A stretch of DNA of 64,000 bases from assembly GCA_021323915.1 (NCBI GenBank), contig JAJPKB010000256.1:1-64000 (forward strand). The letters run 5' to 3'. The notes under the pieces were generated by a model that was not told the DNA's origin, did no database searches, and saw only the letters and a program-made list of their open reading frames with translations. Shown here in pieces: positions 26,661 through 40,187 of the stretch; within the stretch, counting starts at the first letter, position 1, and each line of letters starts with the position of its first letter. Made by a program: the position numbers and the translations under genes. This stretch comes from Chloroflexota bacterium (lineage in GTDB: Bacteria > Chloroflexota > UBA6077 > FW602-bin22 > CADDYW01).

Positions 26661-27410
26661 ATGTCGGGACACAGTAAGTGGGCGCAAATCAAGCATCAGA
26701 AAGCCGGCAACGACGCGAAGCGCGGCCAGCTTTTCACCAAGCTCGGACGTGAGATCACGATCGCCGCCCGTGAGGGCGGGGCCGATGCCGAGTCGAACGT
26801 TCGCTTGCGCCTGGCAATCCAACGGGCCCGCGATGCCAACATGCCGGGAGAAAACATCGACCGCGCGATCAAGCGCGGGTCGGGAACCGGCGATGGCGCC
26901 GCGCTCGAGGAAGCGACCTACGAAGGGTACGGTCCGGGCGGAGCGGCCATGATGGTCGAGGTCGCGACCGACAACCGCAACCGGGCTGCCGCCGAAGTGC
27001 GTAACGCCTTCGCCCGGGCGGGTGGAAACATGGGCGAGAGCGGGTGCGTCGCTTGGATCTTCGAGCCGAGGGGCGTGATCGAAGTCGCGACGAACGGACA
27101 CGATCCCGACGAGCTCGCTCTGCAGGCGATCGACGCCGGCGCGGAAGACGTGCAGACCGAAGGCGACGTCGTCGCGATTTACACGAGCCCGTCGAGTCTC
27201 GAGCCGGTTCGCAAGGCGCTCGCCGCCCAGAACGTGACGATCGCATCGGCCGAGTCGACGATGGTGCCGAAGACAACGGTTTCGACGGATGACGAGACGG
27301 CGCTCAAGGTTTTGCGGCTCGTCGATCGGCTCGAAGAGCTCGACGACGTGCAGAAGGTTTACACAAACCTGGAAATACCGGACGCCGTTCTGGAACAATA
27401 CAGCAAGTGA
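26661..27410 (+). CDS. yebC: YebC/PmpR family protein
   Basis: MSGHSKWAQIKHQKAGNDAKRGQLFTKLGREI, RDANMPGENIDRAIKRGSG, YEGYGPGGAAMMVE. Confidence 0.96.
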   Translation: MSGHSKWAQIKHQKAGNDAKRGQLFTKLGREITIAAREGGADAESNVRLRLAIQRARDANMPGENIDRAIKRGSGTGDGAALEEATYEGYGPGGAAMMVEVATDNRNRAAAEVRNAFARAGGNMGESGCVAWIFEPRGVIEVATNGHDPDELALQAIDAGAEDVQTEGDVVAIYTSPSSLEPVRKALAAQNVTIASAESTMVPKTTVSTDDETALKVLRLVDRLEELDDVQKVYTNLEIPDAVLEQYSK

Positions 27411-27426
27411 GGGCGGCCTGATCTCG

Positions 27427-27939
27427 ATGCGTCGGGTTCTTGGCGTCGATCCCGGGACCGCGCGCATGGGATACGCGGTGGTTCACCAGAGCGGCGAACG
27501 ATTGCAGTTGCTGACCTGCGGCGCGCTCGAGACCGCGAGCTCGCTTCCGCTGCAAGATCGACTTGCGCTCCTCTACGACGGTCTGAAGGATCTCGTCGAC
27601 GCGTGGCACCCGACCGAGCTGGCGATCGAAGATCTCTTCTTCAACCGAAACGTCCGAAGCGCGCTCTCGGTTGGTCAGGCGCGCGGAGTGGCCCTGCTCC
27701 TGGCAGCACACCGAGGGCTGACAGTGAGTAGTTACACGCCGCTCCAGGTCAAAGAGGCGGTGACCGGATTTGGGCGGGCGCGCAAAGAACAAATCCAGGA
27801 AATGGTGCGGGTGCTGCTCGATCTGACGTACGTCCCGCAGCCAGACGACGCTGCCGATGCCGCCGCGCTCGCGGTGTGCCACCTGAACAGCGCGGCCGGA
27901 CGGGAAGCGATCCGGCAGCTCACCCGCGACGCCCGCTGA
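27427..27939 (+). CDS. ruvC: Crossover junction endodeoxyribonuclease RuvC
   Basis: RRVLGVDPGTARMGYAVV, LAIEDLFFNRNVRSALSVGQARGVALL, DDAADAAALAVCHL. Confidence 0.95.
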   Translation: MRRVLGVDPGTARMGYAVVHQSGERLQLLTCGALETASSLPLQDRLALLYDGLKDLVDAWHPTELAIEDLFFNRNVRSALSVGQARGVALLLAAHRGLTVSSYTPLQVKEAVTGFGRARKEQIQEMVRVLLDLTYVPQPDDAADAAALAVCHLNSAAGREAIRQLTRDAR

Positions 27940-27965
27940 TCGAGCCTCAACATCCGGGGGGAACG

Positions 27966-28547
27966 GTGATCGCTGGAATTCGGGGAACGCTGGAAGCGGT
28001 TGGCGTCGATTGGGCGGTGATCGACGTCAGCGGAGTTAGTTACCGAGTCTTCGCGCCGACGAGCACCTTGAATCGGCTCCCGTCGATCGGCCAGGGCGTT
28101 CGCCTCCTCACTCACCTCTATCTACGTGAAGACCAGGTATCGCTTTACGGATTCCTCTCGGCTGAAGAGCTTGCGATGTTCGAGCAATTGCTCGGCGTTT
28201 CCGGGGTCGGACCGAAGCTCGCCTTGACAATGCTGTCGGCGGCGTCGGCCGCGAATCTCCGACAGGCTATCGCGAGCGAAAACGTGGAGAATCTGACGGC
28301 GATCCCGGGCATCGGCCGAAAGCTGGCCGGCCGGTTGATCCTCGAGCTCCGCGGCAAGCTGACGACCCCCGATGGCGTCAAGCCACCAACCGAGCGTCCG
28401 GTCGACGCCGACGTCGCCGAGGCCCTGATTGGCCTGGGATACAGTCCGGTGGACGCCCAGGCAGCGATCAAGAGCCTGCCCACCGGCCGTTCGCTCGACC
28501 TCGAAGAGCGAATCCGCCTGGCGCTACAGTTCTTCGCCAAGCGTTAA
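27966..28547 (+). CDS. ruvA: Holliday junction branch migration protein RuvA
   Basis: MIAGIRGTLEAVGVDWAVIDVSGVSYRV, YGFLSAEELAMFEQLLGVSGVGPKLALTMLSA, TAIPGIGRKLAGRLILEL, EALIGLGYSPVDAQAAI. GTG start. Confidence 0.95.
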   Translation: MIAGIRGTLEAVGVDWAVIDVSGVSYRVFAPTSTLNRLPSIGQGVRLLTHLYLREDQVSLYGFLSAEELAMFEQLLGVSGVGPKLALTMLSAASAANLRQAIASENVENLTAIPGIGRKLAGRLILELRGKLTTPDGVKPPTERPVDADVAEALIGLGYSPVDAQAAIKSLPTGRSLDLEERIRLALQFFAKR

Positions 28548-28554
28548 TGTGGAC

Positions 28555-30309
28555 TCAAGGAACGCTCTCGTCGGGCCCGAAGAAGTCCTCGAATGACCTC
28601 GGCTGGGCAGGAGCCGCGCGGGGTCGCTCGTTGTAGAACAGCGGGTGGTCCTGGACGTCGGCCGCCGGCGGCGCTGTTTCGCGCTCTTGCTCGGCGCGGC
28701 GCGACGGGTTGCTGTATTCGACCCAGATCCGGGGCGCGTCCTGATCCTGGCCTCCGTGCGGCGTGTGCCGCTCGCGAACCGAGACGAGGACCGGCGCGTT
28801 GACGCTCTGGCCGACAATAACCGCCTGACCTTTAGAAAGCGCCGGTAACTCGTCGAGAACGTCGCGGCTGGCGCCCTCCACCGCGGCCGCGACGTTTGCC
28901 TGGTCGATCGGGTTGACGATACGCAGCATAAACTGCGTCATGCACTGCGAGAGGACGTCCTGGTCCAGCTTGCCCGGACGCTGACTGATCAGCCCGACGC
29001 CGACCCCGAACTTCCTGCCCTCGGCAAGGATCGTCCGCAGGATCTCGGCACTGACCACGCGCCCGGCGCTCTCACCCGACGGAGCGAAGTGGTGCGCTTC
29101 TTCCAGCAGAACGAAGGCTGGATAAGGCAGGAAAAGCTCGTCCCCGCGATGAACCCGGCCGCGATCGGTGTCCTGGCGCGCCTGGTAGAGGCGCCGAAGC
29201 AGAACCGCGACCACCACCTGCTGCTCGCGCTGATCGACCTCGTCGAGCTGCAGCACCGTACACTGTCCCGGTTGGAAGAGCGCACGCAGGTCCAGGTGGC
29301 GCGTGTCGTCGAGAATCTGGGCGTTCCGGACGAGTTGCTCGATCCGCCATTCCAGGGCGCCGGCGCTGCTCCGAAAGTCGGTCGCGTCGTCCTCGTCCTT
29401 CTTCTGGGCCGCGAACTTCTGAACCTCGCGGATCAGATCGTCGGTCGTCCAGTGGTCGGCCAGTCCGGATTCCTGGCCCTTCCGACGGGACAGCGACCGG
29501 TGGGCGTGGCCGAGCACGTATTCCATCCGGTCGGTCATATCGATCAGATAGCGCAGATCGCCAAGCCGCAGGCTCGAGAACCGTACGCGGATATCCTTGG
29601 GACGGAGCACTCGGACGACCGGCTCGTACCCGTCCGAGGCCCGAAATGCGGGATGGCGCGCCATCTCGGCCAGGGTATCGTATTCGGCGTGGGGATCGAC
29701 GATCAAGACGCAGGCGCGATTGTGCGGCTTCATCAGCTCTTCGATCAACACCGCCGCGAGGTAGCTCTTGCCGGCGCCGGTCGAGGCCACGATCGCGAGG
29801 TGGGTCGAGGTGAAATCACGCGCGGCCAGGACGATCGGGACGGCGTCGATTCCCCGGCTGAGCAGCGAGCCGACGTGCGCCGCGCCGACTTCACCCGGCG
29901 ACCGCTTGTTCAGGATAGATGCGAGCTGCCGATCGGTCGCAAGGTAGATCGACCAGCCGACCCGCGGCGAGATCCGCGGGTTCACGAAGGTGCCGAGGTG
30001 CTCGTCGAAGAAGCCGAGGGTTCGAACGCTGATCTCGAACAGCTCGGCGTCGCCCTGGTAGCCGAACAGGTCAGCCATCGATCGCGGCGCGACCGCCGGA
30101 TCTGCCATGAACTCGTCCGGATACAGACGGACCGGTTGCCGTCCGACGATCCGTCCGTAGATTGGACGACGTTCGAGATCGTCTGGTGCGACGTAATAGA
30201 CGAACTCTCCTGCCTTCAAGGTCTGGTCGACGTCGGGACTGATGAAGACGTATTCGAGGGGAGTCTCGCCCGGCCCTTTGGCCGTGCCGATAGGACTGGC
30301 TTCGTTCAT
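28555..30309 (-). CDS. herA: HerA-like hexameric ATPase/bipolar helicase (HAS-barrel + FtsK/HerA ATPase)
   Basis: LAIVASTGAGKSYLAAVLIEELM (Walker A), CVLIVDPHAEYDTLAEM, FVLLEEAHHFAP (Walker B), ILRTILAEGRKFGVGVGLISQRPGKLDQDVLSQCMTQFMLRI. Start chosen at MNEASPIG. Confidence 0.9.
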   Translation of the reverse strand: MNEASPIGTAKGPGETPLEYVFISPDVDQTLKAGEFVYYVAPDDLERRPIYGRIVGRQPVRLYPDEFMADPAVAPRSMADLFGYQGDAELFEISVRTLGFFDEHLGTFVNPRISPRVGWSIYLATDRQLASILNKRSPGEVGAAHVGSLLSRGIDAVPIVLAARDFTSTHLAIVASTGAGKSYLAAVLIEELMKPHNRACVLIVDPHAEYDTLAEMARHPAFRASDGYEPVVRVLRPKDIRVRFSSLRLGDLRYLIDMTDRMEYVLGHAHRSLSRRKGQESGLADHWTTDDLIREVQKFAAQKKDEDDATDFRSSAGALEWRIEQLVRNAQILDDTRHLDLRALFQPGQCTVLQLDEVDQREQQVVVAVLLRRLYQARQDTDRGRVHRGDELFLPYPAFVLLEEAHHFAPSGESAGRVVSAEILRTILAEGRKFGVGVGLISQRPGKLDQDVLSQCMTQFMLRIVNPIDQANVAAAVEGASRDVLDELPALSKGQAVIVGQSVNAPVLVSVRERHTPHGGQDQDAPRIWVEYSNPSRRAEQERETAPPAADVQDHPLFYNERPRAAPAQPRSFEDFFGPDESVP

Positions 30310-30386
30310 ACTTCGTCTCACTTCCCCGATCCCAACAAACAGGGGTCGACCGCGCTTGGTTTTTCCCGACACCCGTCGGAGCTTGG

Positions 30387-30989
30387 CTATCTCGTTTGGA
30401 CGGCGGCGCGCCAGCGGATGTTCTGCCGGGCGACTTCGAGGCGCCGGTGCTCCTCGGGAAAGCTAGCGGCCAGCCGATCGATAACGCCACAGAGCAAGTC
30501 CGGCAAAGAGGGAAACGGTCGCGCGAGCAGTCGAGGGAAATAGGACAGGCGCAGTCCACGCTCACCGCGGTGGAACGCGATCACCCGATCGTCGGGGAGA
30601 GCGTGTACCTCGGCGTCGACGCTTGCCGCCAAACGAGGCGTGGCCTGATCGTAGATCGGTTGGCCGTCGAGGCGGGTCGCCGACCCGACGATCGCCACGC
30701 CGACGAGGGTCGCGGTTTCCGCGAGGTAATCCGGACTGAACACCGGTAGCTCCCCCGGCGTGCTCAGCCGCGGTCCCATCGTGCCGAACTCCGGATTGAC
30801 GAGCTCGGTGGTGTAGATGATCCCGATCAGCGATTCGGTCTCGTCGATCGGAATCTCCACGAACTGGCCGAAGGCGTGATCCGACGCCGTCGGAGGATGG
30901 GCGATCTCCGCCGGCCCGTACACCTGGACGACGTAGTCAGAGTGATCGCGCGACGCGACGACTCGACCAATCTCCATCTCCATCCCCAC
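30387..30989 (-). CDS. Small HAS-barrel-like protein of the HerA/NurA cluster
   Basis: EIGRVVASRDHSDYVVQVYGP...GQFVEIPIDETESLIGIIYTTELVNPEF resembles the HAS beta-barrel of HerA and ATP synthases; lies between herA and nurA. Confidence 0.65.
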   Translation of the reverse strand: MGMEMEIGRVVASRDHSDYVVQVYGPAEIAHPPTASDHAFGQFVEIPIDETESLIGIIYTTELVNPEFGTMGPRLSTPGELPVFSPDYLAETATLVGVAIVGSATRLDGQPIYDQATPRLAASVDAEVHALPDDRVIAFHRGERGLRLSYFPRLLARPFPSLPDLLCGVIDRLAASFPEEHRRLEVARQNIRWRAAVQTR

Positions 30990-31004
30990 CCCACGCGCTT
31001 GAGC

Positions 31005-32330
31005 TCAGACGCGGCGACGACGCTTGCTCGCCGCCTTGGGAACGATCTGAAGGGCGATTCCCTGCCGGCCGGCGAAATCGTGCAGGATACGGTAGAAGCG
31101 CTCTCGATCGTGGATGCCCAGCACCGCGCAGGCGTCCGCGGTCTCGATGCAGTATGGATAGCCATTTCCGACGATCACCTCGGCTCGGACGACGTCGACG
31201 ACGTAATCGAGCAAACCATCCCGAACGATCCAGCGGGGCACGTCGAGGCGGGCCGGCGGCATGAGCCCGTTTGTCTTCAGGTAGACGAAGCAGATCTCAT
31301 GCGAATAGTCGAGGAGCAGCTCGCCGTTGGGCATGGCGGACAATCGTCGGGCGTCCTCGCGGAGCGCAGGCGTCTCGCCCGCTTCCGTCCGGTTCCCCCG
31401 GGCGGGCGAGACGCCCGCGCTCCCGGGTCGGGCACCCCCAAACGAAGCGAGGTGGTATCGATCCAGGACGTCTCCGCGGGCGCACACCAGGGCGCGTGTT
31501 CGATCGCCCCAGCCCATGCGTTGGGCGAGGAGTCGACTGTCGGGCACCCGCTGGGGGCGTGGCAGATTGCCGATCACCGCGAGGAGCGTCGTCACGTCCT
31601 TGGCGAGCGAGGTATCGATGAACCCGACCAGGGGGATTCTCGTCTCCTCAGACGCCCGGACGAGACGACAGATCGCCTGGATGTAGTGGTCTCCAACATC
31701 CTGCAGGACGCCCGCCGCGAAGCTCACCACCAGGCTGCCGTCGAAAAACGCGACCGGTGGACGCTCGTCCCATCCCCGCTCCGCGAGCAGGATCATCCGC
31801 TCGATCAAGGCGGTTACCTCAAACTCGAAGCGGCGAAGCGCGAGATTTTGATCGGCGCTGCCGAATCCATCTCCAGCCTCGCCGGTCAGCTCGTCCGGGT
31901 GAATCACCTCGAACCGAACGTCCTTGACGTAGGCGCGGTCTTCCCGATGCGGGTTCTCGAACCAGGCGACCTGAACCGCCGCGACCGGTAGCGAATAGTC
32001 CTTGGTGGGCTTGATCTCGCTGCCATCCACCGCGACGGTCGTGACGTTGGCGATTCGGTCGAGCGCCCATTGTCGGGCGGCACGGTGATTGTCGAGCCGT
32101 CCGTCGAACGGGATGAAGAAGCCGGTGCGCTCCTGCCATTCTTCGCTTGGCGTCGCACCAGGGTGGGAGACGTCGGCGACCAGCGATTCGAGCTCGTCGG
32201 CGTCGAGCCGATCGAGGCGAGCCAACGCCCGCTCGAACCGACGGAAGGCAGCCGACTCATTCTCGGCGAACGCGCGAAACCGATCTGCGCTCGCCTCGAG
32301 CTGCTGATTTACCCGAGCCGTATACAGCAT
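31005..32330 (-). CDS. nurA: NurA-domain nuclease with an in-frame repeat-derived insertion
   Basis: VTTVAVDGSEIKPTKDYSLPVAAVQVAWF (DGS motif), VAFFDGSLVV, VGFIDTSLAKDV; position beside HerA/Rad50/Mre11. Confidence 0.85.
   Translation of the reverse strand: MLYTARVNQQLEASADRFRAFAENESAAFRRFERALARLDRLDADELESLVADVSHPGATPSEEWQERTGFFIPFDGRLDNHRAARQWALDRIANVTTVAVDGSEIKPTKDYSLPVAAVQVAWFENPHREDRAYVKDVRFEVIHPDELTGEAGDGFGSADQNLALRRFEFEVTALIERMILLAERGWDERPPVAFFDGSLVVSFAAGVLQDVGDHYIQAICRLVRASEETRIPLVGFIDTSLAKDVTTLLAVIGNLPRPQRVPDSRLLAQRMGWGDRTRALVCARGDVLDRYHLASFGGARPGSAGVSPARGNRTEAGETPALREDARRLSAMPNGELLLDYSHEICFVYLKTNGLMPPARLDVPRWIVRDGLLDYVVDVVRAEVIVGNGYPYCIETADACAVLGIHDRERFYRILHDFAGRQGIALQIVPKAASKRRRRV
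31361..31423. repeat. REP-like inverted-repeat element inside the nurA coding sequence
   Basis: ggagcgcaggcgtctcgcccgc (31361-31382) versus gcgggcgagacgcccgcgctcc (31402-31423): 21/22 complementary, 19-nt loop. On the nurA strand it encodes GSAGVSPARGNRTEAGETPALRE. Confidence 0.8.
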
Positions 32331-32332
32331 GC

Positions 32333-35300
32333 TCAGCTCTGATCGAGCACGCGCGAGCGACCGTTCTCTCGGCCGATCCGAATCACGTGTCCGAACAATC
32401 CATCGAAGGTGTCGTCGTGGCTGATCACGACGAGCTGGTCGAAGCCCTGAAGACGCTGGACCTGATCGCCCAGATTCGCCCGTCGCTCCTGATCGAGGTG
32501 GGCGGTCGGCTCGTCCAGAAAGGCGATGCGGATGTTGCTCAAATCACGAAGGATCGCCAGGCGAACGGCCAGAGCGGCTGCCATCTGCTCGCCGCCGGAA
32601 AGCTGGGCGAAGCCGCGCGTCTCGCCTCCCCGTCGGGTGACGATCTCGTAGCTGGTCGTCCACTCCAGCTCGATGCCGGCTTGGTTCAGGATCTCGGCGT
32701 TGATCCGGGTGGCCATGCGGCTGATCCGGGCGAGGAGCTGACGCGTGATCTCCGGTCCGGCCGCGCGAATCGATTTACGGAGCGCGTCCGCGAGCTGGCG
32801 CTCGTCGTCGATCCGTTCGAGCTTGCGACGGTGCTCTTCCAGCTCCAGCTCGATCCGCCGCGCGTCCTCGATCTCGCGCTCCAGGTCCTCCTGCTTTTTT
32901 TCTTCCTCGGTGATGCGCCCCTGGGTAACTCCGATTGCGTGGTCCAATTCGCCAAGGCGCTGACGCGCTTGCTTCTGGGCGTCCTGGTCGTAGCTCGCGG
33001 CGGCGGAGTCGGCGACCTCACGGCAGCGTTCGGCCTCGCGCCGTGCTTCGGCCGCACTTGCCTCCGCGCTGGCGAGGGCGGTTTCGCGATCCGTCAACGT
33101 CGCGGCGAGCGGGGACGCGGCGACGAACTCGTCGTGGTCGGACCGGCACCGGTCGCGACTGCCGCGAAGCTCCTCGAGTCGACGGTCGAGATCCTGGAAC
33201 GGCACGAGCGCCTGATCGGCGCTCGCCAGGCGTGCTGCCGCGCGTTCTTGCTCGGCGATCGCTTCCTGCCGCCTGGCGCGAAGCGGTCCTAGCTTCGTGG
33301 CTTCCCGATCCAGGTTGGAGGCGCGCTCGCGCGGGCTGTTCAGAGCGTTCAACGCCGTGACCGCGGCTGCCAGATCGGCGACGGCCGGCGTGAGGGCCTC
33401 GATCCGGGCCCGGGCTTCGCGTTGCTCCTGCTCCAGCGTCTGTTGATCCCGTCGCGCCTCGGCGACCCCGCTTCGGAGCTCGGACAGGCGAGAGACCTCC
33501 TGGGCCGCGCGCTGCGCCTCCTCGAGGAGACGCTGTGCCGCCAGCGCCGTTCTCTCTACCTCGGTGCGCTCGCTGGCGAGCCGCGCGGCGGCGCGGAGCT
33601 TTTCTCGGTCATCGTCCAGGCGGCCGAGGTCGTCGGCCAGGTCTTGCTCCAGGCGCGAACGCTCGGCGCGAAGCCGCGGCAACGCCGCGATTCGGTCCCG
33701 GGCATCGCGGGCCACGCTCAGCTTTCGCTCCAGAGTTTGGAGGCGATGGTTGAGTCGCTCGACCTCGATCTGCCAGCGTTCAATCTCGCCGTCGAAGTAG
33801 GTCTCCAGGGTCACGCCCGGGCGAAGGTTTCGACAGGCCTCGTGAAGGAACGGGCAGAGACCGCCCCCGACTTGTTCGCGTGTCGCTTTCGAGTGCCCCA
33901 GTTGGGCGCTCGCCGCGGCGCGACCATCGGAGACCTCCCGGTGGGCGGCTTCCACGCTGGCGAGCTCGGCCACGTCCGCTTCGAGCGCCGCGAGGGCGGC
34001 GATGTCACGGTCGAGCTCGGCCGCCCGTTTCTGCCCGGCCTCGACCCTCCGCTGGGTCTGGGCGATTGACTGGCGGAGCGCCCTGACCTCTCCTTCGGCG
34101 CGGTTGGCCTCGGCGAGCCTGGCGGCGGCATGATCGTTTCCAAGACGGCGGGCCGGAAGCTCGTCCGCGATGGAATGAAGGGCCAGCGCGTCGGCGACGG
34201 CCTTCTCGGACAGTTCCACGCGGCGTTGGGCCCGCTTCAGCTGATCCTCCAGAGTGGGCAGTCGCTTGCGAATCTGGTCGAATTCCGCCTTCGCGTCGCG
34301 CGCCAACTGGAGGCGGCGCTCCGCCGCCTCCTGCTCCGGGATCTTCCGGCGCAGCTCGGCCGCCTCGCTGGCCGCCTGCTCGGCGCGCTCGATCTCGTCG
34401 TCGAGACGGCCGACGCGGTCGGTCGCCGACTGCAACGCGCGCTCGGCCGCGTGGCGCAGGTCGACCAGCTCGTCCCGGCGTTTTTGATCCGCTTCGAGCA
34501 GCAGCAGCTTCTCGGTCACCTCCACGTACCGGTCGTGGCTTGCTCGGGTCCGCGCGCAAGTATTGGCGGCGGCGAGGGCGCGCTGACGCTCCGCCTCGGT
34601 TCGCTCGAGGATCGCGTTGGCGGTCCGCAGGCGCTCCGCGGCGAGATCAAGCGCGGCCCGCGCGGCTTGCCAGGCCTGCTCGGCTCGCCCCAGGTCTTCG
34701 ATCTCTCGCGCGCACGCCGCCCGCTCGGCGACGTGCCGCTGGAGCTCTTTCACCAGGGCGAAGATTCGGTCGCGGACCTCTTCCCGCTGGGATTCCTTGG
34801 TGATTCGCGCCTGAGCGAGCGGCTCCAGCCCGGCGATCGCGATCTCGGCCTGGTGCTGCTCTTCGTCGAGGGCGCTTTCGAGCGCCGCGAGCTTGCGGTA
34901 AGCGTCCTCGTACTCCGCGACGCGAAGCAGTCGATCGAACTTCGAGCGTCGCTCCTGGGCGGCCTCGAGGAATACCGCGGTCAGGGTGCCCTGGGGCGGA
35001 CCAACCGAGTCGAGAAACAACGACCGCAGGTCGACCTCCGCGTCGAGGCGAAGATGGGTGTGCAGCCAGCTTCGTACCTCGGCCTCGCCCCGGGCGACAG
35101 TTTGAGAGATATCCGGATCGAACACCTGCTGCGACGACGGCTTTCCGACTCGTCGGACGACCTCGTAGGTGCGACCGTCGAGGCGGGACTCGACGACGAC
35201 GACGATCGTCCCGCTGGACTGGCCTTCGCGGACGAAATCCTCCTGCCGATAAGGAAGGTGCTGGAACAGGACGGAGCCGATGGCCTCGAGGACGGTCGAC

Positions 35301-35413
35301 TTGCCGGCGCCGTTGGCCCCGCAGATCGCGTTGACGCCGGTCGTGAGCCGAATCACCTCGGCCGGGCTTCCGTAGGACTTGACGTTTTCCAGGCGAACTT
35401 CGCGAACGATCAT
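32333..35413 (-). CDS. Rad50/SbcC-like SMC-family ATPase
   Basis: VNAICGANGAGKSTVLEAIGSVLF (Walker A), about 700 aa of coiled coil, ABC signature AQLSGGEQMAAALAVRLAI, Walker B IRIAFLDEPTAHLD; hook-like CPFLHEAC mid-protein. Confidence 0.92.
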   Translation of the reverse strand: MIVREVRLENVKSYGSPAEVIRLTTGVNAICGANGAGKSTVLEAIGSVLFQHLPYRQEDFVREGQSSGTIVVVVESRLDGRTYEVVRRVGKPSSQQVFDPDISQTVARGEAEVRSWLHTHLRLDAEVDLRSLFLDSVGPPQGTLTAVFLEAAQERRSKFDRLLRVAEYEDAYRKLAALESALDEEQHQAEIAIAGLEPLAQARITKESQREEVRDRIFALVKELQRHVAERAACAREIEDLGRAEQAWQAARAALDLAAERLRTANAILERTEAERQRALAAANTCARTRASHDRYVEVTEKLLLLEADQKRRDELVDLRHAAERALQSATDRVGRLDDEIERAEQAASEAAELRRKIPEQEAAERRLQLARDAKAEFDQIRKRLPTLEDQLKRAQRRVELSEKAVADALALHSIADELPARRLGNDHAAARLAEANRAEGEVRALRQSIAQTQRRVEAGQKRAAELDRDIAALAALEADVAELASVEAAHREVSDGRAAASAQLGHSKATREQVGGGLCPFLHEACRNLRPGVTLETYFDGEIERWQIEVERLNHRLQTLERKLSVARDARDRIAALPRLRAERSRLEQDLADDLGRLDDDREKLRAAARLASERTEVERTALAAQRLLEEAQRAAQEVSRLSELRSGVAEARRDQQTLEQEQREARARIEALTPAVADLAAAVTALNALNSPRERASNLDREATKLGPLRARRQEAIAEQERAAARLASADQALVPFQDLDRRLEELRGSRDRCRSDHDEFVAASPLAATLTDRETALASAEASAAEARREAERCREVADSAAASYDQDAQKQARQRLGELDHAIGVTQGRITEEEKKQEDLEREIEDARRIELELEEHRRKLERIDDERQLADALRKSIRAAGPEITRQLLARISRMATRINAEILNQAGIELEWTTSYEIVTRRGGETRGFAQLSGGEQMAAALAVRLAILRDLSNIRIAFLDEPTAHLDQERRANLGDQVQRLQGFDQLVVISHDDTFDGLFGHVIRIGRENGRSRVLDQS

Positions 35414-36738
35414 CGTTCGATGCCCACCGGTCCTTCGACCGGCGGGATTACGCCGGCCAGACCATCGATCCGGTCCAGGGAATCACGGAGCGCCTCGAGA
35501 AGCCGCGGCCCGTCTTCGCCTCGCAGGGCGCGCTCTTTCAGATCGAGCGCGAGGGTGGCGAGCTGATTCGCGTAGGGCGCGTACCGCTCGTCGCTGGCGA
35601 GTCGATCCCGCAGCACGGAACGCTCGAGGAACGCGCGGTCGATCGGCTCGTCGTCGTCAGCGCCCTCGGTCGCGAAGTCCCGCGGGTCGTATTCTTCGCG
35701 GATCTGCACCACCAGCGGATCGAAGTTTTCGCGACAGGCATCCTCCAGCTGATTGATCGGAAGGGCCTCCTGGCCGAACCGAAGCCGGCCGCGCATGGTG
35801 ACGAAGACGACCGGTCGCTGGTCTGCCAGCAGCCGCGCTCGCTCGCGCTCCAGCCGCTCGAAGCACCCTCGAAGCAATGCACGTGGGCTCTCGTACTGAT
35901 CCACGTTGAGCTGAACGACCACAAACGGACGGCGCGGCACGTCGATCAGCCGAAAGGTCACCGGATGGGGCTGGCTGGTGTCGACCTCCACGTGCAGCAG
36001 GCCGCGATCCCAGGACCATTCGTTGAGCGCCCAGGTTTCGAGGCTTCCTCCGTTATAGGCGAGGTTCGAGGTGGTGAAGTGCTTGTGCAGGTGACCCAGG
36101 GCAAGGTAATCAACCGTGCCCCTCAGCGGCTCGATCGAATTGGCGGTCAGCTCGGCGTTGACGCGGGGGACGATGCCCTCGATGCCGGCGTGGAGCACCA
36201 GAATCGTGAACGCGCCGTCGTTGCCGAACTCCTCGAGGCGAGGCTGAAGCTCGCGCAGGACTCGCTCGGTGGACGCGCCCAGGTACCGCACGCCGACGAT
36301 CCGGCAGCCACTCCACTCGACGTAGCTGCCGTGGTGCTTGCCGCGCTCGACCGGCCGAAGCCGGACGCCGTCCGGTCCGGTCAGCACGTCGAGGTGGGTA
36401 AGCAAACCCTGATCGGCGAAGCTGTCGAGCCAGCTTTTCGCCTCGCCGTAGCGGGTGCGGTCGTGGTTGCCCTGGATATCGACGATGGGCACGCCGGCCT
36501 CGCGCAGCATCGACAGGCCGGCGTGTGCCTGATCGAAGGTCACCGGGTTGATCGTGAATCGATTGAAGAGATCGCCTGCGCAGATCGCGAAGTCGGGCCG
36601 AGCGTTCGCGACGTACTCACAGGCGAAGAGCCAGGCGCGACCAAAATCGTTGAGGCGCTCCGGGCAGTCGTACTGCTGGGTGCCGAGATGAACGTCTCCA
36701 AAATGAACGAAGGAGCACCGCACGACCGAGCTCTCCAT
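35410..36738 (-). CDS. Mre11/SbcD-like DNA repair exonuclease (metallophosphoesterase)
   Basis: FVHFGDVHLGTQQYD, AICAGDLFN, IVDIQGNHDRTRYG, LVLHAGIEG, LALGHLHKHF. Start chosen at MESSVVR; stop overlaps the rad50-like start by 4 nt. Confidence 0.92.
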   Translation of the reverse strand: MESSVVRCSFVHFGDVHLGTQQYDCPERLNDFGRAWLFACEYVANARPDFAICAGDLFNRFTINPVTFDQAHAGLSMLREAGVPIVDIQGNHDRTRYGEAKSWLDSFADQGLLTHLDVLTGPDGVRLRPVERGKHHGSYVEWSGCRIVGVRYLGASTERVLRELQPRLEEFGNDGAFTILVLHAGIEGIVPRVNAELTANSIEPLRGTVDYLALGHLHKHFTTSNLAYNGGSLETWALNEWSWDRGLLHVEVDTSQPHPVTFRLIDVPRRPFVVVQLNVDQYESPRALLRGCFERLERERARLLADQRPVVFVTMRGRLRFGQEALPINQLEDACRENFDPLVVQIREEYDPRDFATEGADDDEPIDRAFLERSVLRDRLASDERYAPYANQLATLALDLKERALRGEDGPRLLEALRDSLDRIDGLAGVIPPVEGPVGIER

Positions 36739-36774
36739 TGCCAACCGGTTAGAACGGACCTTTCGACTAGCGGT

Positions 36775-36780
36775 ATTATA
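36775..36780 (-). promoter_or_regulatory. Putative -10 box (TATAAT) for the mre11-rad50-nurA-HAS-herA cluster
   Basis: Minus-strand gcgcTATAATaccgc upstream of the mre11-like start; same GCGCTATAAT context as 11021-11026. Confidence 0.4.
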
Positions 36781-36826
36781 GCGCACTACCGTTCGACGGG
36801 TACCGACGAACGCCGCATCGGTGCGT

Positions 36827-38220: not shown

Positions 38221-40014
38221 TCAACCGGTGATGACGGTCGGCGCCGGCAAGGCAATCGACGCGGCGGGCCGTCCGTGGACCTGGAAGGTGACCGGCTGGT
38301 AGCTACCGAGGTCGTCGTGGCTGAGAATCTCGTAGCGATAGCCCTGCTCGGTCAGGAATAGCTGGCGCTTGGCCGCGAACTCCTGGTCCTTGGTATCTCG
38401 GGTGACCAGGGTGTAGAAGTGGGCCAGCAAGCCGTTTCGCTTCGGTCGGAGGATCCGACCGAGCCGCTGGGCTTCCTCCTGCCGCGAGCCGTAGGTGCCG
38501 GACACCTGGATCGCGACGTTGGCGTCGGGCAGATCGATCGCGAAGTTCGCGACTTTCGAGACGATCAGACGGGTGATCTCCCCGGTTCGGAACTTCTCAT
38601 AGAGCGCCTCGCGGTCGCGAACCGGCGTCTTGCCGGTGATGATCGGCGCGTCGAGCACCTCTTTGATCGCCGTCAACTGGTCGAGGTATTGCCCGATCAC
38701 GAGGATCTGATCGTCCGGGTGCTTGTCGAGAATGACGCGCATGGCCTCCAGCTTCAGCGGGTTCTCCGCCGCGACTCGGAATTTGTCTTTTTCCTCGCTC
38801 ATGGCGTAGGCCATCCGGTGCTCGCCGGGAAGCGGCAGACGCACCTCGTGGCACTCCGCGGTCGCGATCCATCCCTGCTGCTCGAGATCCTTCCAGGGGA
38901 CGTCGTATTTCTTCGGCCCGATCAAGGAGAAGACGTCCTCTTCGCGGCCGTCCTCGCGGACGAGCGTCGCGGTGAGCCCGAGTCGGCGGCGCGCCTGGAT
39001 CTCCGCGGTGATGCGAAAGACCGGCGCCGGGAGAAGGTGCACCTCGTCGTAGATGATCAGCCCCCAGTCGCGCTCGTCGAAGAGGTGAAAGTGCGGAAAC
39101 TCGGTATCCTTCGAAGACCGGTGAGTCAGAATCTGGTAGGTCGCGACGGTGACCGGCTTGATCTCCTTGCGCTGGCCGGTGTATTCCCCGATCGCGTCCC
39201 GGGGAATGCGCGTCTTGTCGACGATCTCCTCGATCCACTGGCGCGCGGCGACGGTGTTCGGAGTGAGAATGAGGGTCGCGCACTGAAGCTTATCCATGAC
39301 CGCCAGGCCGACCACCGTCTTGCCGGCTCCGCAGGGCAGGACGATGACGCCACTGCCCCCGCGAACTCCGCCCGAGGCGTAGAACACGTCTACCGCCTCC
39401 ACCTGATACGGCCGAAGCTGGAAGCGTTCTCCGTCCCCGGTCTCCGGTCGCAGCGCGACGTCGAGCGGCGCGCCATCAACGTAGCCGGCCAGGTCTTCAG
39501 CCGGAAAGCCGAATTGAACGAGCGCGTGCTTGATGTGCCCGCGCAGGGCGGGATCGATCACCAGGGTGTGCTCGTCGCGTTGCCCGGCGATGAAACCGAC
39601 GAACCGCTTGTGATTGGCGATCTCGGCCAGGAGCGGCACGTCGTCCGAGATCAGGAGGAGATCGGCGCCCTCGCGTACCAGCTTGAGACGACCGTAGCGT
39701 CCGACGTAATCGTAGATGTCGGTCCGAATGTTCGCCGGGACGTCGTATTTCCCGAAGCGGGTAAGCGCCTCGACGATGTTCTCGGCGCTGAGACCGGTCG
39801 CGGCGGCGTTCCAGAGCGACAGCGGAGTGATCCGATAGGTGTGGATGTGCTCCGGACTCTTTTCTAGCTCGGCGAACCGCGCCAGCGCGTCGCGCGCCTC
39901 GGTGTAAAGCGGATTGTTCACTTCGAGCAGTACGGTCCGGTCGCTCTGCACAATGATCGGTCCGGTCGAGCTTCTCGCCACGCCACGTCCCTCGGTTGAT
40001 AGAGCAGGAGACAT
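38221..40014 (-). CDS. XPB/Rad25-family DEAD-box helicase
   Basis: LRPYQVEAVDVFYA, GSGVIVLPCGAGKTVVGLAVM, LIIYDEVHLLPAPVFR (DEVH), RLGLTATLVREDGRE, QYLDQLTAIKEVL; XPB-type N-terminal domain (YRITPLSLWNAAATGLS). Confidence 0.9.
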   Translation of the reverse strand: MSPALSTEGRGVARSSTGPIIVQSDRTVLLEVNNPLYTEARDALARFAELEKSPEHIHTYRITPLSLWNAAATGLSAENIVEALTRFGKYDVPANIRTDIYDYVGRYGRLKLVREGADLLLISDDVPLLAEIANHKRFVGFIAGQRDEHTLVIDPALRGHIKHALVQFGFPAEDLAGYVDGAPLDVALRPETGDGERFQLRPYQVEAVDVFYASGGVRGGSGVIVLPCGAGKTVVGLAVMDKLQCATLILTPNTVAARQWIEEIVDKTRIPRDAIGEYTGQRKEIKPVTVATYQILTHRSSKDTEFPHFHLFDERDWGLIIYDEVHLLPAPVFRITAEIQARRRLGLTATLVREDGREEDVFSLIGPKKYDVPWKDLEQQGWIATAECHEVRLPLPGEHRMAYAMSEEKDKFRVAAENPLKLEAMRVILDKHPDDQILVIGQYLDQLTAIKEVLDAPIITGKTPVRDREALYEKFRTGEITRLIVSKVANFAIDLPDANVAIQVSGTYGSRQEEAQRLGRILRPKRNGLLAHFYTLVTRDTKDQEFAAKRQLFLTEQGYRYEILSHDDLGSYQPVTFQVHGRPAASIALPAPTVITG

Positions 40015-40187
40015 GACATGATCGCGGAATCTCGACGCCCTGTCAAATCGGTTCCGGTGCGGCCTTGCCCCGCCAAAACCTCGTCTCGCTGGATAGATGC
40101 AGCGCAAGAGGATTGGTTCTAGAATCGGTTCGCACGGAGAATTGACCATCGGCTGAATCGGGTATGCTTTGACGTAGGAGTCGAGAT

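Follow-up and report, generated by a model that had tools for sequence, protein, structure and literature searches.

The stretch of DNA considered here, termed the window, comprises 64,000 of the 64,796 bases of contig C271 in the metagenome assembly of a Chloroflexota bacterium (694 contigs, 94% complete, 8.8% contamination). Between positions 28555 and 36786, five open reading frames (ORFs) on the minus strand encode, in this order, an Mre11-type nuclease, a Rad50-type ATPase, a NurA nuclease, a small free-standing HAS-barrel protein (hereafter HASs) and the hexameric DNA translocase HerA. The spacing from mre11 to herA amounts to -4, 2, 15 and 14 bases, with the start of rad50 overlapping the stop of mre11 by 4 bases, and the last gap widens to 77 bases if herA begins at 30309. 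A first-pass annotation of the window had proposed a full HerA-NurA-Mre11-Rad50 set running as one directional unit, together with a separate small HAS-barrel protein, and the ORFs, domains, protein families, predicted folds and conserved gene order have borne out this description. The arrangement mre11-rad50-nurA-HAS-herA is designated type A in what follows, while type B designates a second layout, nurA-HAS-herA-sbcD-sbcC, which is common in Chloroflexota.

Protein families encoded by the cluster

The Mre11-type nuclease (35410..36786, minus strand, with a conserved start near 36738) carries the Pfam domain PF00149 (E 5e-10), and its catalytic and metal-binding residues D31, H33, D72, N107, H108, H199, H232 and H234 are invariant in the type A family. 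It scores 94 bits against the NCBIfam model Mre11_Pyroc, and the best match among structures in the PDB is Pyrococcus Mre11 (85 bits), with a single SbcD match at 31 bits. Rad50 (32333..35413, minus strand, 1026 amino acids) contains the Pfam domains AAA_23/SMC_N and reaches 200 bits with the NCBIfam archaeal Rad50 model. This pair shares the Mre11-Rad50 architecture with SbcCD, but the window Mre11 obtains only 33.6 bits from the sbcd model (TIGR00619), below the cut-off of 77.65 for assignment to SbcD, and no SbcC model occurs among the best 25 matches of Rad50. As a control, a type B cluster from a relative gave 132 bits to sbcd and 302 bits to sbcc. Judged by similarity scores rather than by a tree, Mre11, Rad50 and also HerA resemble archaeal families far more than SbcCD, in agreement with the archaeal style first ascribed to the cluster.

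The apex hook of Rad50 is non-canonical. No CxxC zinc hook was found in the window protein, where CPFLHEAC occupies residues 520-527 instead (C520-x6-C527; 33833..33856, minus strand). Most type A Rad50s carry the corresponding CPxxxxxC (CX6C) pattern, the exceptions being two proteins with CxxC and two that match neither pattern, whereas type B SbcCs carry CPxC. A literature search on variant Rad50 hooks in cyanobacteria turned up nothing but a tRNase paper on another subject. Elsewhere in the window genome, a second Mre11-Rad50-like pair was observed (C367, locus L161), and another such pair stands next to full-length AddAB in the genome G002 (C6, locus L164), where it may constitute a further resection module.

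In the ORF at 31005..32330 (minus strand, 441 amino acids), the NurA domain PF09376 is recognised above its cut-off (E 2e-30, 106 bits), and the catalytic residues D102 and D197 are invariant in the family. Sequence searches against the PDB gave no matches for this protein, but a fold search did: the predicted structure, modelled with 11 sequences (predicted local distance difference test, pLDDT, of 81) and, like all structure predictions in this analysis, a monomer, best matches Deinococcus NurA from a HerA-NurA complex (7f6d) and Pyrococcus NurA (3tal). The NurA fold, on which the first-pass annotation had staked its reading of the cluster, is in this way confirmed by prediction. The gene also harbours an in-frame palindromic insert (31357..31423, minus strand), composed of 22-base inverted arms with one mismatch and with a DNA hairpin energy of -37.3 kcal/mol (z -6.9). 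The insert forms part of an extra loop, some 40 residues long (around 299-338), which is absent from relatives and predicted to be disordered. Both strands of the palindrome read as an AGVSPA...AGETPAL motif, and one arm-like match to it was also seen in locus L042.

The small ORF encoding HASs (30387..30989, minus strand, with a likely start at 30977; about 196-200 amino acids) has no match in Pfam, NCBIfam or PADLOC, and the Pfam HAS-barrel model PF09378 does not detect small proteins of the window type. Its AlphaFold model, built with 37 relatives, has a pLDDT of 87.8, and comparison with the PDB using Foldseek gave 51 matches with E <= 0.001, of which the 50 listed are all HerA or HerA-complex chains. 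Since every listed match is HerA, the HAS-barrel reading of the small ORF is correct as far as its predicted fold can tell. Its profile is moreover related to those of the type B small proteins (hhalign E 1e-7), several of which do match PF09378. The loop at residues 72-89 is modelled with a pLDDT below 50 and yet is the most conserved stretch of the protein (GPRL...FxPD), as would be expected of a binding surface.

HerA is encoded at 28555..30372 (minus strand), although the start at 30309 chosen in the first-pass annotation fits relatives better than 30372. The ATPase core is recognised by PF01935 (E 1e-35) with invariant Walker residues, and the NCBIfam archaeal HerA model gives 204 bits. 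An N-terminal region ahead of the core appears from sequence comparison to be present and conserved, with PF09378 giving no matches in the window genome; because HerA seems to retain this region of its own, HASs is considered an additional, free-standing domain. Against the PDB, the window HerA obtains 161 bits with Thermococcus HerA and at most 94 bits with antiphage HerAs, whereas the type B HerA of a relative obtains only 61 bits with the same Thermococcus structure. By these scores, the window HerA is of the repair type.

Gene order and co-occurrence across genomes

The type A five-gene order is kept in eight GTDB-type families (f1, f12, f24, f33, f36, f53, f60 and f94), although in f12 and f33 extra ORFs occur between the genes. 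The recurrence of the same order in eight families indicates that the arrangement is not due to chance, and it provides the conservation in relatives that the first-pass annotation had looked to. In six families (f23, f28, f30, f41, f43 and f95), only HASs and herA are still adjacent at the loci that were read; in f28, nurA and mre11 share another contig, where they lie approximately 3 kb apart. With NurA found in 35 of 41 relatives, and nurA-herA-sbcDC layouts common in the phylum, the cluster is less exceptional for a bacterium than the first-pass annotation had implied.

Type A HASs has been detected in 55 of 399 Chloroflexota genomes, belonging to 34 genera. The profile alignments used in these surveys were built from clustered loci and also recover scattered genes. 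Type A HerA occurs in all 55 HASs-positive genomes and as one fragment in another genome, type A NurA in 54 of them and in four others (one weak), and type A Mre11 in all 55 and in 15 others; the co-occurrence of HASs with each of the three is significant at Fisher < 1e-50, uncorrected for shared ancestry. The distance between HASs and herA is at most about 1.2 kb in 52 of the 55 genomes. In the genome G025, roughly 9 kb separate herA and the HAS gene (C44:145059-157469, locus L040), and CRISPR type III-like (Cmr1/RAMP-like) genes lie in between. Type A Mre11 has also been observed without type A HerA, NurA or HASs in G047, G083 and others of genus g44 of family f24, which indicates that Mre11 can persist without the rest of the set.

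A marked difference concerns SbcD, which was found above cut-off in 2 of 51 HASs-positive Chloroflexota versus 28 of 33 HASs-negative relatives (Fisher 6e-15), the former being a phylum-wide group and the latter a group of near relatives. The type A set mostly excludes SbcD, a further point of difference from SbcCD. Outside the phylum, relatives of HASs occur in many cyanobacteria and in one acidobacterium. In these organisms HASs has no adjacent herA, and an adjacent nurA is present only in the acidobacterium, upstream and with one ORF between. Type A HerA (E < 1e-212) and NurA (E < 1e-114) are carried by the acidobacterium and by all seven cyanobacterial genomes searched; type A NurA is also present in one of the two Caldilineaceae searched.

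Genomic setting and comparison with known systems

The neighbourhood of the cluster is of a housekeeping nature, with no defence island. The convergent genes yebC-ruvC-ruvA (26661..28547, plus strand; RuvA domains detected) lie outside the unit and adjoin it in all four family members. Upstream, at 38221..40149 on the minus strand, an eukaryote/archaea-like XPB/Rad25 DNA repair helicase gene was noted (NF045503, 883 bits, over cut-off), which is also found near the cluster in G001 and G002. The guanine-cytosine (GC) content of the cluster is close to that of its surroundings. A promoter scan of the cluster gave no sites, a result that says little in a high-GC genome.

These features bear on a defence role, which the first-pass annotation had left possible. 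The five proteins could act against phages by capturing linear DNA that enters the cell and degrading it, considering that HerA-nuclease pairs are common in defence and that PADLOC HerA models match here; the Thermococcus study likewise cites the notion that foreign DNA might be destroyed by digestion of both strands (PMC12977600). HerA-DUF4297 and HerA-Sir2, the antiphage systems compared, have in common with the window the HerA motor and the HAS-barrel fold, which they carry in the HerA N-terminus. The window nonetheless contains no effector of their kind, its HerA is nearest to repair HerA rather than to theirs, and no defence effector of any type was found in the cluster, where PADLOC matches only the ATPase proteins HerA and Rad50, besides the nearby XPB helicase. 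The retention of yebC-ruvC-ruvA and of a nearby XPB gene within the family, the conservation of the genes across genera, their unlinked state in cyanobacteria and the unremarkable GC content also argue against defence, which is regarded as very improbable.

The closest known counterpart is the archaeal herA-nurA-mre11-rad50 operon of Sulfolobus, Pyrococcus and Thermococcus, in which the same four families form one cluster (PMC2288612, PMC12977600), and the window Mre11, Rad50 and HerA are closest to archaeal models. The window differs from this operon in adding a fifth, free-standing HAS-barrel gene, in residing in a bacterial host that also has AddAB, and in the CX6C hook of most Rad50s of its type. 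Among bacteria, NurA-HerA has been reported in Deinococcus and Thermus (PMC9960219, PMC5448004), and a nurA-herA-sbcD-sbcC cluster is already known in a Thermales genus, Oceanithermus (PMC5448004). As in the window, HerA-NurA occurs there in a bacterium, in Oceanithermus with adjoining Mre11-Rad50 homologues, but the portions of these sources at hand describe no HAS-barrel third gene, and Mre11-Rad50 is of the SbcCD type or absent (PMC9960219, PMC5448004). Type B clusters in Chloroflexota resemble this Oceanithermus arrangement with a small HAS gene added (PMC5448004). A search of the open-access literature found no description of a third subunit or of a replacement of SbcCD, which is weak evidence of novelty.

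A candidate third subunit in proposed DNA end processing

Taken together, the cluster is probably a chromosomal operon for the processing of broken DNA ends, in which HerA-NurA of this lineage would have HASs as an obligate third subunit. Solved complexes contain six HerA and two NurA subunits, joined via the HAS domains of HerA, and HASs shares the fold of precisely this NurA-contacting domain (PMC12977600). Given that it is inherited with HerA and mostly remains beside herA when other genes move, HASs most plausibly acts as a subunit that docks on HerA. From the observed gene content, folds, order and co-occurrence, we infer a resection activity, physical binding and a direction of regulation along the following lines. 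Mre11-Rad50 would recognise and open the DNA end, after which the HerA hexamer would thread the duplex and feed it to the NurA dimer, whose cutting would leave single-stranded DNA for RecA. HASs would most likely use its barrel, together with the flexible and conserved loop at about residues 72-92, to dock on the side of the HerA ring that bears the HAS-barrels and is occupied by NurA, and may thereby couple or regulate the contact between motor and nuclease.

The same structural resemblance allows for an opposite role, in which HASs, as a negative regulator or decoy, would imitate the HAS-barrel of HerA and prevent NurA from binding as long as no damage has arisen. Competition of this kind is structurally plausible, since HASs and the NurA-contacting domain of HerA have one fold in common. 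Where the cluster has dispersed, however, HASs stays beside herA and not nurA, which favours a partner of HerA, and in type B clusters, too, nurA and herA flank the small HAS gene; a decoy function therefore seems unlikely.

Several observations weigh against end processing with HASs as a third subunit. Thermococcus HerA-NurA cuts both strands in vitro, and its role in resection is debated (PMC12977600). The co-occurrence counts share ancestry, HASs is not beside herA in three genomes (G025, G125 and G188), and SbcD is also present in four of the five trio-carrying cyanobacterial genomes tested. Finally, AddAB is also found in the host genome, as AddA (1218 amino acids) and a contig-end fragment of AddB on contig C469, so that resection by the cluster may be redundant. 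For this reason, replacement of AddAB by the cluster was rejected as an explanation. In the genome G003, no PDDEXK_1 match was seen. Of the expectations set by the first-pass annotation, the conservation of the cluster has held while the absence of AddAB has not, and the cluster is not simply an AddAB substitute.

The presence of AddAB, already available for resection, also lends some weight to a role of the unit in the processing of replication forks or chromosome dimers instead of double-strand-break resection. HerA is a relative of FtsK, and the Holliday-junction genes ruvC-ruvA adjoin the unit. Nevertheless, nucleases such as Mre11-Rad50 and NurA are indicative of end processing, and no segregation genes were seen adjoining the unit, which leaves a fork or dimer function decidedly improbable.

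The prevailing view of HerA-NurA places it in archaea, with Deinococcus-Thermus as an outlying case. Since both strands are cut by the archaeal complex in purified form, the way in which 3' overhangs arise is not settled (PMC12977600). A bolder and rather doubtful proposal is that bacterial HerA-NurA systems in general contain HASs as a third subunit that has gone unnoticed. HASs would then break the HerA6-NurA2 symmetry and confer strand selectivity, a property not displayed in vitro by the archaeal complex of two proteins, and end processing by HerA-NurA in bacteria would extend through Chloroflexota and cyanobacteria, far wider than the Deinococcus-Thermus range of the literature. The near exclusion of SbcD suggests, in addition, that one Mre11-Rad50 lineage has naturally been exchanged for another inside a single bacterial phylum. 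The trio is carried by Chloroflexota and by cyanobacteria, some of the latter being culture-collection strains, and HASs, which accompanies virtually all HerA and NurA proteins of the lineage, makes it possible to test directly if a component is missing from the known two-protein complex.

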